64,000 bases of DNA from an uncultured Caryophanales bacterium (GTDB lineage: Bacteria; Bacillota_I; Bacilli_A; RFN20; CAG-826): assembly GCA_946407815.1 (NCBI GenBank), contig CAMJPB010000001.1, positions 124,001-188,000 on the forward strand, written 5' to 3'. The translations under genes and the position numbers were made by a program. Of the stretch, positions 7,196 through 11,550 are shown in pieces. Position 1 is the stretch's first letter. Every line of letters begins with the position of its first letter. The notes under the pieces were generated by a model. It had not been told where the DNA came from. It worked only from the letters and a program-made list of their open reading frames with translations, and searched no databases.

Positions 7196-8041
7196 TCAAT
7201 ACCCCATGTCAGATTTATACTGATGTGGGGTTTTGTATTTCAAACAATACATTGGACGCTCATGATTATAATAATTTATATATTTTTTTATCAGCGATAA
7301 AACATCGTCACATTTCTGTAAATTAAAATCGATAAACAATTCATCTTTAATCCAACCATTAAGAGATTCGTCTATTGGATTGTCCGTCGGAGTTCCTGCT
7401 CGAGACATTGAATGAATAATGCTATTATTAATTAGAAGCTTATTAAAGGCTTCAGAAGAATAAACCGCACCCTGATCTGTATGCAAAGTAGATGAGTTGG
7501 TTTGTTCTTTTTCTTTTAAAAGCCCGATAACTTGTTCTAATCCTTCAAAATATGGTTTTATATCACCTTTTCGATCAGTTAATCCAAAGCCCACAATTTC
7601 ACGGTTGAATGTATCAAAATATAATGTTAGTTCGTAATAGATTCCTTTTGAATAGAATGCCGTCATATCAGATACGATAATTTCTAATGGTTTAGAAGCG
7701 TTCCAGTTATTCCATATGAGATTTGGATAAATGTAACTACTCTCGCCAGGTTTCTTATATTTATAATGCTTTGATTCGCACACAACTCCAGCATATTTCC
7801 TACATCGATATATGTATTCTGGAGACATAATCACGCCATCGTTTTTCTTCAGGTAAGCCGCTAACCAACGATAACCATGGGCTTTATGTTTGTTAGACTG
7901 CTCTTTGATATATTCGACATCTTTCATTCTTTGGATATGTCTTGCTGATGGATGAGATTTTCGAAATTTCCATTTATAATATCCACTTCGATTTATATCC
8001 ATAACATTGCATAGCAATGAAATAGGATATTGTTTTGACAA
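7196..8041 (-). CDS. IS3-family transposase OrfB (DDE integrase domain)
   Basis: A 281-residue rve-type integrase. The DDE residues are visible in SDMTAFYS, HTDQGAVYSS and NPIDESLNGWIKDE, followed by the conserved INYYNHERP segment. An N-terminal helical region (INRSGYYKW) matches OrfB proteins. The listed start is a TTG at 8041, but the frame stays open upstream to the A6G slippery site at 8086-8092 (reading FKKGIRYYQRLEYEVLEEL), so the natural product is probably an OrfAB fusion made by -1 frameshifting. Confidence 0.93.
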   Translation of the reverse strand: MSKQYPISLLCNVMDINRSGYYKWKFRKSHPSARHIQRMKDVEYIKEQSNKHKAHGYRWLAAYLKKNDGVIMSPEYIYRCRKYAGVVCESKHYKYKKPGESSYIYPNLIWNNWNASKPLEIIVSDMTAFYSKGIYYELTLYFDTFNREIVGFGLTDRKGDIKPYFEGLEQVIGLLKEKEQTNSSTLHTDQGAVYSSEAFNKLLINNSIIHSMSRAGTPTDNPIDESLNGWIKDELFIDFNLQKCDDVLSLIKKYINYYNHERPMYCLKYKTPHQYKSDMGY

Positions 8042-8046
8042 TTCTT

Positions 8047-8442
8047 CTAAGACTTCGTATTCAAGTCGTTGATAGTAACGTATTCCTTTTTTGAACCAAC
8101 TCCTTTCACTTGGTACCCTTTTTTTAATCGGGCAACCTCGACTTTTAATTTAAGATTTTCTAACTCAAGTTCTTCTTCTCTAGTTTTGTTTTTCTTGTTT
8201 TGCAAAGAGCTATACGGATTGCCTTTTCCTGGATGCTTTTTTCGACCTGTTTTACTTCTTAAACCTGCGATTCCATATTTGCGATAATTTTTTATCCAAA
8301 GTGTGAAACCGCCACGACTTATTCCATACTTATCTGCCGTCTTTCTATAAGATGGACATTTGTCATTAAAATATTCAAGGACGATTGCTTCCTTTTCCTT
8401 TGGCGACCGCATATTGTTTTTTGTTCCTCTAGGTCTGCCCAT
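8047..8442 (-). CDS. IS3-family transposase OrfA (helix-turn-helix, leucine zipper)
   Basis: Start chosen at the ATG at 8442, preceded by AAAGGAG at good spacing; an upstream in-frame TTG at 8460 would lie before that ribosome site. The product has a helix-turn-helix (YRKTADKYGISRGGFTLWIKNY) of the IS150/insJ type and a C-terminal acidic and leucine-rich coiled coil (EEELELENLKLKVEVARL). It binds the IS ends. The slippery heptamer A AAA AAG at 8092-8086 is in the correct zero frame (tcA AAA AAG) a dozen codons before its stop. Confidence 0.9.
   Translation of the reverse strand: MGRPRGTKNNMRSPKEKEAIVLEYFNDKCPSYRKTADKYGISRGGFTLWIKNYRKYGIAGLRSKTGRKKHPGKGNPYSSLQNKKNKTREEELELENLKLKVEVARLKKGYQVKGVGSKKEYVTINDLNTKS
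8086..8092 (-). promoter_or_regulatory. Programmed -1 ribosomal frameshift site (A AAA AAG)
   Basis: On the minus strand the orfA frame reads tcA AAA AAG. A -1 slip gives AAA AAA G and continues in the orfB frame without a stop to the TTG at 8041 and beyond. A AAA AAG is the classic IS3-family slip site. No stimulatory structure was evaluated. Confidence 0.75.
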
Positions 8443-8519
8443 TTTTATTCTCCTTTTCAATAGAATAGCAAAGAAAAAAGTGGACGGTTCATTTTTTCCT
8501 TGTCCACTTTTATGCTAGC

Positions 8520-9346: not shown

Positions 9347-10079
9347 AAATTTTATTCAAGAAGTAAGGAAGTTGATATTTCCAACTTGGCCAGTCATGAG
9401 TTGAGTTTTCATCCCAGAAGTTAAAATCGATATGAATTCCTTTTTCTCTAGCGATTTGATCGAGTTCATAGTTGGAATCAGAAACTAAATGTTCATAAGC
9501 GCCTTTTCCAATACAAGCGATCATTCTTTTAGAATTATACACGCCTATGTAGAAGTGGTCATTAGGCATGTTTCTTAAATAATGAACTGGAGAATTGTTA
9601 TAAACATCAGAGTTCATATAGCCTCCAAAGAAGGAGGCGATATTGTATTGTCCGCTTAAAGCGATGAATCCAGCGAACAATTCTGGTCTACGTAAAAAGT
9701 TGTTAACAGAGTGAGATGCGCCCATTGACATTCCGATCAAATATGGATAGCAAAAACCTTGCATGTTGTCGTAAACAAATGGAAGTACTTCATTAATGAA
9801 GTATTGATGATACATTTCAAGCTTATACGCTGCATGAGCCTTATCCCAATGAGTGGACGAAACTGTCTCATCATCATTTGAATCTAGGCAGAAAAGTTTC
9901 ATTCTTCCTTCTTCTAGAAAAGGCTTTAAAACATCGATCATTCCGTTATTTGCGAAGTCATCTGAAAGTTTATCTTGGCACGGAAAAGCGATGAAAGCTG
10001 GTCCATAATGACCATAAATTCTAATTTTCATGTAGCGGTTTAGTCTTTCGCTATACCAACTCACTTCTTCGTACTTCAT
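9342..10079 (-). CDS. Alpha/beta-hydrolase, esterase-like (COG4947 type)
   Basis: A 245-residue alpha/beta-hydrolase. The nucleophile elbow GMSMGASHS lies near residue 135 and a C-terminal THDWPSW supplies the likely catalytic His. It has no signal peptide, so it is cytoplasmic. The N-terminal segment (WYSERLNRYMKIRIYGHYGP) and overall length resemble putative esterases annotated as COG4947. The substrate is unknown. It lies directly upstream of the fRMsr gene on the same strand with a 10-bp gap. Its own promoter places the -10 box 7 nt before the ATG. Confidence 0.8.
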   Translation of the reverse strand: MKYEEVSWYSERLNRYMKIRIYGHYGPAFIAFPCQDKLSDDFANNGMIDVLKPFLEEGRMKLFCLDSNDDETVSSTHWDKAHAAYKLEMYHQYFINEVLPFVYDNMQGFCYPYLIGMSMGASHSVNNFLRRPELFAGFIALSGQYNIASFFGGYMNSDVYNNSPVHYLRNMPNDHFYIGVYNSKRMIACIGKGAYEHLVSDSNYELDQIAREKGIHIDFNFWDENSTHDWPSWKYQLPYFLNKIL

Positions 10080-10086
10080 ACGTAGA

Positions 10087-10117
10087 ATAATACACTAAAA
10101 GTGGAGTGTTTTGTCAA
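10087..10117 (-). promoter_or_regulatory. Leaderless promoter for the esterase gene
   Basis: On the minus strand TTGACA (10117-10112) and TATTAT (10092-10087), 19 bp apart, with the ATG only 7 nt after the -10. Transcription would begin at or next to the A of ATG. Confidence 0.6.
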
Positions 10118-10167
10118 GATAACGTTACATTATATGTAACTGCTTTCATAAAATTTTCTACTATTTT

Positions 10168-10279
10168 AGTTGATTTTCTAGTTTAAAGGACTATGCTATT
10201 ACCCTTCGATTCTTGAAGGCGCGCTAAAAGAATTGAAGAAACCCCCTCCTCTGACTGATTAGAAAGGAGAAACCAAATC
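10168..10279 (+). promoter_or_regulatory. Promoter and structured 5' leader of the 48-residue gene
   Basis: A TTGATT / TATGCT pair with 16-bp spacing lies near 10170-10197. The leader that follows can form a CCTTC/GAAGG hairpin and then CTCCT...AGGAG, in which the second arm is the Shine-Dalgarno of the small ORF. Sequestration of that site suggests translational control. I do not recognise a known riboswitch class in it. Confidence 0.45.
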
Positions 10280-10426
10280 ATGAAAAACTTATTTAAGTTT
10301 TATTCTGAGGAAGAAGCTGAAGTTCGTAATGAAAATTTGGTTGAAAACATTGCTGAATCAGATGAACCAATCTCTGATGTCAACAACATTGAATCAAATT
10401 TAGACGAAGCTCTCTTATTCTTCTAA
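10280..10426 (+). CDS. Small acidic protein of 48 residues, unknown function
   Basis: An ATG preceded by a strong AGAAAGGAG at 10 nt opens a 48-codon frame (MKNLFKFYSEEEAEVRNENL at the N-terminus) ending in ALLFF and TAA. It is acidic, without a membrane helix or signal peptide, and begins with a short amphipathic basic/aromatic segment. The dedicated promoter, structured leader and strong ribosome site support real translation. It precedes corC on the same strand, with a hairpin (10441-10467) between them. No family is recognised. Confidence 0.6.
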   Translation: MKNLFKFYSEEEAEVRNENLVENIAESDEPISDVNNIESNLDEALLFF

Positions 10427-10440
10427 ATTGGAATGGATTT

Positions 10441-10467
10441 AGTAGTGGTAATATTAAATTATCACTA
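10441..10467 (+). other. Inverted repeat between the small ORF and corC
   Basis: TAGTGGTAAT and ATTATCACTA form a hairpin with a short AT loop and one G-U pair. It is followed by an A-run, not a T-run, so it may be an operator or a processing/termination site; undecided. Confidence 0.35.
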
Positions 10468-10488
10468 CAAAAATCCTAACAAATCTTA

Positions 10489-10494
10489 TACAAT
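10489..10494 (+). promoter_or_regulatory. -10 box before corC-like gene
   Basis: TACAAT 12 nt before the ATG at 10507, with no Shine-Dalgarno in the gap; a near-leaderless message is expected. Confidence 0.4.
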
Positions 10495-10506
10495 ATCAAA
10501 TTGTCT

Positions 10507-11550
10507 ATGAATACTAGCCCTGATCCCAGTATTATATTTACATCTCTAGACGAATTACCAAATTTCGTTCTAATTTCAATAATTATCTTAGTAGGTTTAT
10601 TACTATTCTCAGCATTCTTTTCATTAAGCGAAACTGCGTTTACATCTCTTAATGAAATTAGAATTGAAAATCTTGCTAAAACACATCGAAGTGCGAGACT
10701 TGTTATGAAAATTAGCAAGAACTATGACCGCTTATTATCAACGATTTTAATTGGTAACAATATTGTAAATATTGCGGCATCAGCATTCGCGACAATTTTA
10801 TTTGTAAAATACTATGGAGATTTAGGTCCAACTTTAGCCACAATTATAGTGACAATAGTGGTCCTTATATTTGGAGAAGTTACCCCTAAATCACTCGCTA
10901 AAGAGCGACCAGAGTTCTTCGCGAGAATAAACGTTTATTTACTTTACGTTTTCTATTATTTATTCTTCCCAATTTCACTTATTTTAAGTGGAATTCAATG
11001 GTTAATTAAGAAACTTCTTCACGTTGAAAATGAGGAAGACGTTCCTTACACCGAAGAAGAATTCTCAATGCTTGTTGAAGACATGAATGAAGCTCGTGTT
11101 CTTAACGATATTGAAGAAGATATTATTCAAAACACCATAGAATATGGTGACACTAAAGTTGAAGACGTTATGATCAAGGCTAAAGAAGTTGATCATATTC
11201 GCGGAAATGAATCATTTAAAAAGATTTGTCAGTACTTTATTGAGACTAATAGATCCAGAATGGTCGTTTGTAAATCTACAAAGCTTGATACAGCCTATGG
11301 TGTTATACACCAAAAAGATTTATTTGAGCTCTTAGTTAAAGGCGAAACAGACATTAATAAGATCATTATGACTGATATTGTCGTGTGTAAACCATCTCAC
11401 AAAATCTCAAGATTATTTAAGAAGTTACAAGCTGCTCATCAACACTTAGCCATCGTCAAAGACGATGATAAGGTTGTCGGCATCGTTACAATGGAAGATA
11501 TATTAGAAGAACTCGTCGGCGAAATTAAAGACGAGAATGATGAGGATTAA
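10507..11550 (+). CDS. CNNM/CBS-domain membrane protein (CorC/HlyC-like), short form
   Basis: The N-terminal CNNM (DUF21) domain has four hydrophobic segments and FSLSETAFTSL, LLSTILIGNNIVN and FGEVTPKSLA. A CBS pair follows (VMIKAKEVDHIRG through GIVTMEDILEELVGEI). Relatives are linked to magnesium or cobalt efflux and resistance. This protein ends right after the second CBS domain and lacks the C-terminal CorC_HlyC domain of about 80 residues found in full-length members. The start is taken at ATG 10507; a TTG two codons earlier is possible. Confidence 0.85.
   Translation: MNTSPDPSIIFTSLDELPNFVLISIIILVGLLLFSAFFSLSETAFTSLNEIRIENLAKTHRSARLVMKISKNYDRLLSTILIGNNIVNIAASAFATILFVKYYGDLGPTLATIIVTIVVLIFGEVTPKSLAKERPEFFARINVYLLYVFYYLFFPISLILSGIQWLIKKLLHVENEEDVPYTEEEFSMLVEDMNEARVLNDIEEDIIQNTIEYGDTKVEDVMIKAKEVDHIRGNESFKKICQYFIETNRSRMVVCKSTKLDTAYGVIHQKDLFELLVKGETDINKIIMTDIVVCKPSHKISRLFKKLQAAHQHLAIVKDDDKVVGIVTMEDILEELVGEIKDENDED

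Follow-up and report, generated by a model that had tools for sequence, protein, structure and literature searches.

Three described systems come closest: catabolite control by CcpA and cre, SR1/SR1P and the leader of Fst. In Bacillus subtilis, cre boxes follow the consensus WTGNNARCGNWWWCAW, and those located 5' of the -35 element are associated with activation (PMC3463425). SR1, a transcript controlled by CcpN and CcpA, encodes the 39-amino-acid protein SR1P, and is limited to Bacillales according to the review that treats it (PMC8464778). In the Fst/par system of pAD1, a 5' stem-loop hides the Shine–Dalgarno (SD) sequence of a small open reading frame (ORF) (PMC7472228).

The locus described here lies in a 64,000-nucleotide stretch of DNA from a gut Bacilli genus with small genomes (the window, referring to the whole stretch analysed), in which a first-pass annotation had proposed a regulated micro-gene of 48 codons. 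That proposal is supported by purifying selection, by relatives of the gene and by a conserved upstream site and promoter, and the motifs it named are all present (ORF, 10280–10426; AGGAG, 10265–10269; CTCCT, 10246–10250; CCTTC/GAAGG, 10203–10207 / 10215–10219). Judged from its sequence, the locus is a real gene for a small protein, restricted to its lineage and preceded by a conserved operator of catabolite type.

The ORF (10280–10426, plus strand) encodes MKNLFKFYSEEEAEVRNENLVENIAESDEPISDVNNIESNLDEALLFF, a protein of 48 amino acids of which 13 are acidic and three basic by composition count. Short genes of such length are often passed over by gene finders. A protein search of the genus returned matches in two of 24 genomes, the window's own and that of another species (G014), which has a 79%-identical copy in the same place; the G014 ORF is identical in a public sheep rumen record of the same contig ('MAG: Bacilli bacterium isolate RGIG6798'). 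Absences in the window genome are weak evidence because its assembly (736,588 bases in two contigs) is 45.5% complete. Over 48 aligned codons the window and G014 ORFs differ by 27 bases and 10 residues, with nine codons silently different and one whole-codon difference in length, giving a dN of 0.14 and a dS of 0.70 by the NG86 method (dN/dS about 0.2). Neutral simulation produced a mean of 18.4 residue changes, and 10 or fewer, as observed, in 1/20,000 and 0/20,000 runs. The first-pass annotation had made its proposal depend on conservation of the ORF; it is kept in G014 under this constraint and has diverged copies in G005 and G012, and the comparison indicates that it is a real small gene under purifying selection. 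That it is instead a chance ORF might be argued from its length of just 48 codons and from the lack of a match in most related genomes, yet the residue changes are few for the base changes, the reading frame is kept, the tail of the protein recurs in G005 and G012, and the searches that returned nothing also overlooked these two genomes, which have copies. We regard a chance ORF as scarcely credible; the neutral simulation already refutes it unless the window/G014 alignment is wrong.

The protein belongs to what we term family 1, found in at least four of the 24 genus genomes (the window, G014, G012 and G005; 48, 49, 46 and 46 amino acids respectively), all four members having the C-terminal motif P-[IL]-x-D-x-N-N-I-[DE]-x-S...LFF. 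The G012 and G005 proteins are 89% identical (dN 0.08, dS 0.30) and their link to the window and G014 proteins consists mainly of about 17 C-terminal residues and a common operator. The scores between these two pairs were reached by 34, 20, 0 and 1 of 20,000 shuffles, and two-against-two profile alignment with hhalign gave an E-value of 3.3e-4 over 15 columns with a probability of only 38%. A profile search with the window and G014 sequences in 224 family and 279 order genomes gave weak further matches only, which does not prove absence since the genus copies in G005 and G012 were missed by these searches. One such match, in G265, fell in the E range of about 0.01–0.03; for three others in that range (G066, G128 and G113) the surrounding translations were read and contained no similar small ORF. 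A protein match in G011 (E 0.067) inside a 932-amino-acid frame was taken as chance, as were the blastn matches listed (E up to 1) except for G014 and a stretch upstream of the CNNM gene in G011. Family 1 had no match in Pfam, NCBIfam (two members run) or PHROGs; sequence searches of the PDB gave a best E of 0.3; and no family 1 match was obtained from phages (window protein), plasmids (window and G005 proteins) or viral contigs. In those parts of the literature on CcpA with small proteins and on these bacteria that were available, no mention of the family was found. AlphaFold2 models of the two closest sequences contained two helices (mean pLDDT 63, pTM 0.27), too weak for a fold search. Very acidic and with a conserved NNI-[DE]...LFF tail, the family 1 protein most likely binds a partner via that tail.

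The ORF precedes a CNNM gene in both the window and G014. In G011 the small gene is missing and a rubrerythrin-like gene, named by eye, stands directly before CNNM; in G012 the gap between CNNM and a different ORF preceding it is 12 bases. The window has, between its small gene and CNNM, an inverted repeat, GTAGTGGTAATATTAAATTATCACTAC, followed by a -10-like TATACAAT (10442–10468 and 10487–10507), with the ATG 12 bases on, and a similar repeat and -10 are found in G014 and G011. As these also occur in G011, without the small gene, they are probably CNNM's own, and the CNNM mRNA may be nearly leaderless. Elsewhere in the window, two minus-strand ORFs of 281 and 137 amino acids (7196–8460) look by eye like two IS3-type transposase frames.

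Upstream of the small gene is a putative promoter, TTGATT-16-TATGCT (10170–10197, plus strand), with eight of 12 consensus matches by our own count. The first-pass annotation had called a promoter here; a simple promoter scan does not report it, but it is supported by conservation, with G014 having TTGATT-16-TAAAAT at equal spacing. A clearer signal than the leader, absent from that annotation and lying just 5' of the annotated interval, is a cre/LacI-type operator-like site, TGTAACTGCTTTCATAA (10135–10151, plus strand), a 17-mer identical in G014; the distance from this site to the -35 differs by nine bases between the two species. A perfect 7-base inverted repeat, GTTACAT-TAT-ATGTAAC (10124–10140), overlaps the left end of the operator, between the small gene and a divergent esterase gene; its form is not kept in G014. 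The operator site is the only exact match to TGWAANYGNTTWCA in the window, and with one mismatch allowed seven matches were found against 7.7 expected from shuffles. Because this frequency equals chance, the case for the operator rests on comparison between species.

Across the genus, TGTAACTGCTTTCATAA with up to two mismatches had 25 matches in 15 of the 24 genomes, compared with 10 for the reversed control. Seven of the 25 contain the 15-base core TGTAA[AC]TGCTTTCAT, and all seven precede genes of family 1 or of a second family of small proteins, family 2: these are the sites in the window and G014 (48 and 49 amino acids), in G012 (46), in G005 (75 then 46), in G007 at two places (73 and 74) and in G015 (73). 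Sixteen of the 25 sites were inspected (longest same-strand ORF within 350 bases; motif scan of 121 sequences), namely the seven core sites and nine others, and no family 1 or 2 gene was found at these nine. An eighth core site (G015:C40), with three mismatches, was located via its family 2 gene and lies outside the 25. The promoters of the 74-amino-acid genes in G007 and G015 read TTGACA-16-TATCAT with a spacer ending in AAAGGGAC; these promoters and those of the window and G014 all have a 16-base spacer, with AAAGGAC or AAAGGGAC at its end.

Family 2 (73–77 amino acids) has two members each in G007 and G015 and one each in G013, G022, G008 and G001. All eight genes have a cre-like site within about 170 bases 5', picked by eye; those of G013, G022, G008 and G001, likewise picked by eye, are CG-centred. 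TGTAANYGNTTWCA was matched exactly at seven of the eight loci, the exception being G008. Profile comparison of families 1 and 2 indicated no relation (E 0.27). The 75-amino-acid protein of G005 aligns with family 2 by hhalign (E 8.4e-5, probability 60%) and is, from this alignment, a probable distant member. In G005, the 75-amino-acid (family 2) and 46-amino-acid (family 1) genes stand in tandem, in that order, behind one operator site; given this arrangement the two proteins probably work together, and their genes are probably co-transcribed.

The ccpA model TIGR01481 had matches in all 24 genus genomes, none of them over the cut-off (442), and in nine of 14 control genomes including E. coli, with two over the cut-off. 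As nine of 14 controls match too, matching this model indicates a LacI-family protein and not specifically CcpA. The window genome encodes one protein matched by this model (G000:C1:513194–514270), for which ccpA is the best NCBIfam hit (169.5 bits, cut-off 442; next 124.4). The window site read as ATGTAACTGCTTTCAT has two departures from the cre consensus and is centred on TG, not CG; a family 2 site in G013, ATGTAAACGTTTTCAT, fits that consensus in full.

Folding predicts an 11-bp stem, P1 (CUUCGAUUCUU / AAGAAUUGAAG; 10204–10238, plus strand), where the RNA is presumed to begin. The CCTTC/GAAGG hairpin annotated here earlier is mispaired: when forced, the fold reaches -13.5 kcal/mol compared with -21.2 with P1, which is 7.7 kcal/mol better. 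The minimum free energy (MFE) fold of 10203–10300, containing P1 and the short hairpin P2, is -22.7 kcal/mol versus -13.0 for shuffles (z -3.4), and a P1-like helix arose at this place in 0 of 2,000 window shuffles and anywhere in 0.25%. G014 has a counterpart, CUUUGGU/ACCAAAG, at the same place; read from the two sequences, four pairs are unchanged, one has a one-side change and two have both-side changes. In G014 shuffles, at least seven pairs formed at the P1 place in 2.3% and anywhere in 52%; P1 is not the MFE structure there (-13.9 versus -14.7; pair probability 0.39), and the leader of G014 taken whole is no more stable than its shuffles (z 0.07). MAFFT alignment of the two usable leaders, window and G014, placed P1 out of register. 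In agreement with the earlier remark that the RNA matched no familiar riboswitch class, Rfam 15 gave no match at gathering score in the window or in five related loci; at a loose threshold there were four sub-threshold hits at chance level, the best with an E of 0.31. Two upstream ORFs in the leaders, MKKPPPLTD in the window and one of 21 codons in G014, were dropped because they are not conserved between the two. No intrinsic terminator was reported within 9900–10650.

The start codon is preceded by an extended SD, TAGAAAGGAG (10260–10269, plus strand), presumably complementary to the 16S tail, CCUCCUUUCUA. P2 (10246–10269, plus strand) is the short hairpin predicted between CTCCT (10246–10250) and AGGAG (10265–10269); this pairing, proposed by the first-pass annotation, is also possible in the G014 leader, but the 80 bases 5' of the G005 and G012 starts contain no CTCCT. 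Pairing of the SD is seen in the best window fold and in the 12 lowest G014 folds printed, with a predicted unpaired fraction of 0.13–0.21 in the window and 0.03–0.35 in G014. CTCCT occurs within 45 bases 5' of an AGGAG with start codon at one of 28 window sites (these 28 are not all genes), namely the 10280 gene. By predicted accessibility, however, hiding of the SD is not rare, as the 10280 start is only the fifth lowest among 19 distinct start-like sites of the window (AGGAG or GGAGG, ORF of at least 45 amino acids). Hiding of the ribosome site by the leader, as the first-pass annotation proposed, is predicted for the window and its closest copy, G014; the hiding predicted for G005 and G012 is of another form.

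In G005 and G012 a CTCCT lies 50 bases inside the gene and can pair with the SD, whose unpaired fraction falls from 0.41–0.66 when the RNA is cut 15–50 bases into the gene to 0.13–0.39 at 90–140 bases. The closure is predicted to be largely via the in-gene CTCCT, with pairing probabilities of 0.06–0.95 in G005 and 0.69–1.0 in G012 that vary with folded length; among the 19 window starts, one has a CTCCT within 150 bases of the beginning of its ORF. Being 89% identical, G005 and G012 are treated as a single case. Because this in-gene element closes the SD when longer RNA is folded, the family as a whole may hide its SD, by one of two routes, a leader or an in-gene CTCCT. The 73-amino-acid family 2 genes of G007 and G015 also have a CCTCCT and a partly paired SD (0.19–0.48 unpaired), and CTCCT–SD pairing may keep recurring in shifting positions behind an unchanging operator. 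Just 5' of the family 1 gene, G005 (L063 1878–1955) and G012 (L119) have a conserved stem, CCUGAY/GUCAGG, with an alternative hairpin, GGCA/UGCC; in G005 it is located between the two small genes.

Could control lie mainly in the RNA itself, as a riboswitch, a thermometer or an sRNA-controlled leader in which rearrangement of CTCCT frees the SD and the operator is secondary? The predicted pairing of the SD in the window and G014, the window fold (z -3.4), the both-side changes in P1, a near-equal G014 fold in which a 5' CUCCUUU pairs with the SD, and the uncommon in-gene CTCCT of G005 and G012 are all consistent with this. Against it, Rfam offers chance-level hits only, the leader CTCCT is missing in G005 and G012, the G014 leader fold equals shuffles, four of 18 other distinct start-like sites in the window have a less accessible predicted SD, and the G005 and G012 evidence amounts to one case. 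The predicted unpaired fraction in the window is also nearly flat (0.13–0.15) from 20 to 60°C in the model ensemble, and nothing we found shows ligand sensing by the leader RNA. We consider a primary RNA switch unlikely, though the strongest of the competing readings. A dual-function regulatory RNA, in which a C-rich segment between P1 and P2 would pair with the SDs of other mRNAs and the ORF would be a second product, is more doubtful still. Such a segment follows P1 in the window (AAACCCCCTCC), in G014 (ACCCGGCCCTCC) and, in weaker form, in G005 and G012 (TCCCC, CCC), the operator is of catabolite type, and SR1 offers a precedent (PMC8464778); the segment nevertheless varies among members, and, as noted above, no intrinsic terminator was reported for the region.

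Less probable again, and in our view very improbable, is that the transcript is the toxin mRNA of a type I toxin–antitoxin pair like Fst of pAD1, where a 5' stem-loop likewise hides the SD (PMC7472228). The pattern CTCCT...TAGAAAGGAG, which had 10 matches in the genus versus two in the control (those in G020 and G009 look unrelated), does also find 27–29-residue hydrophobic ORFs, e.g. MKTNKEIVYAFLLGIIELVCLILELIR, at loci L106 (G001), L107 (G003), L113 (G019) and L112 (G018). The window protein, however, is acidic and has no hydrophobic span by eye, and its operator core is common to family 2 genes whose proteins also look non-hydrophobic by eye. At L106 a 20-base repeat flanks the hydrophobic ORF on both sides, and loci of this type look like Fst/par-type type I toxin–antitoxin loci. 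Outside the genus the related pattern CCTCCT...AGAAAGGAG says little, as its 47 matches in 42 of 224 family genomes compare with 34 for the reversed control (own count).

The account that we favour, and hold to be probable, is that of a stand-alone family 1 gene in a catabolite-type regulon, with CcpA-like activation and gating of the SD by CTCCT. A LacI-family regulator, probably the genome's CcpA-like protein, would bind the operator, which is centred some 62 bases 5' of the presumed start of transcription and lies wholly 5' of the -35, the usual position for activation by CcpA. It would thereby switch on the making of small acidic proteins specific to the lineage, from structured mRNAs with strong SDs: the mRNA would begin at P1 and bear the extended SD, onto which the leader CTCCT of the window and G014 is predicted to fold, so lowering or delaying translation. 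RNA gating is, from these folds, a plausible second layer. A broader proposal, which we advance tentatively and with slightly less than even confidence, is that the genus has a catabolite-type regulon devoted to two unrelated, previously unnamed families (46–49 and 73–77 amino acids) in which the operator is the most conserved element, species swap or pair the proteins behind one operator–promoter module, and CTCCT hides the SD from either leader or gene. Protein searches alone had found only one relative, and it was the 17-base operator that led to two more members and the tandem arrangement; a regulatory site may therefore be a practical route to fast-changing small proteins. The finding also suggests that, in gut Bacilli that have received little study, small acidic proteins are under catabolite control.

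By comparison with the CcpA/cre system of B. subtilis, the locus is alike in having a cre-shaped operator 5' of the -35 and a LacI-family protein whose best hit is ccpA; it differs in that the window genome's regulator falls far under the curated ccpA cut-off, the window site is TG-centred, and the core sites followed in this genus lead to small-protein genes. With SR1/SR1P it has in common a short, putatively catabolite-controlled transcript encoding a small protein (PMC8464778), although for SR1 both CcpN and CcpA act as repressors and the cre is situated some 260 bp upstream. The likeness to the Fst/par leader is confined to the 5' structure that conceals a small ORF's SD (PMC7472228): Fst is a membrane toxin with an antisense RNA II and direct repeats, whereas the window protein is acidic and soluble-looking.
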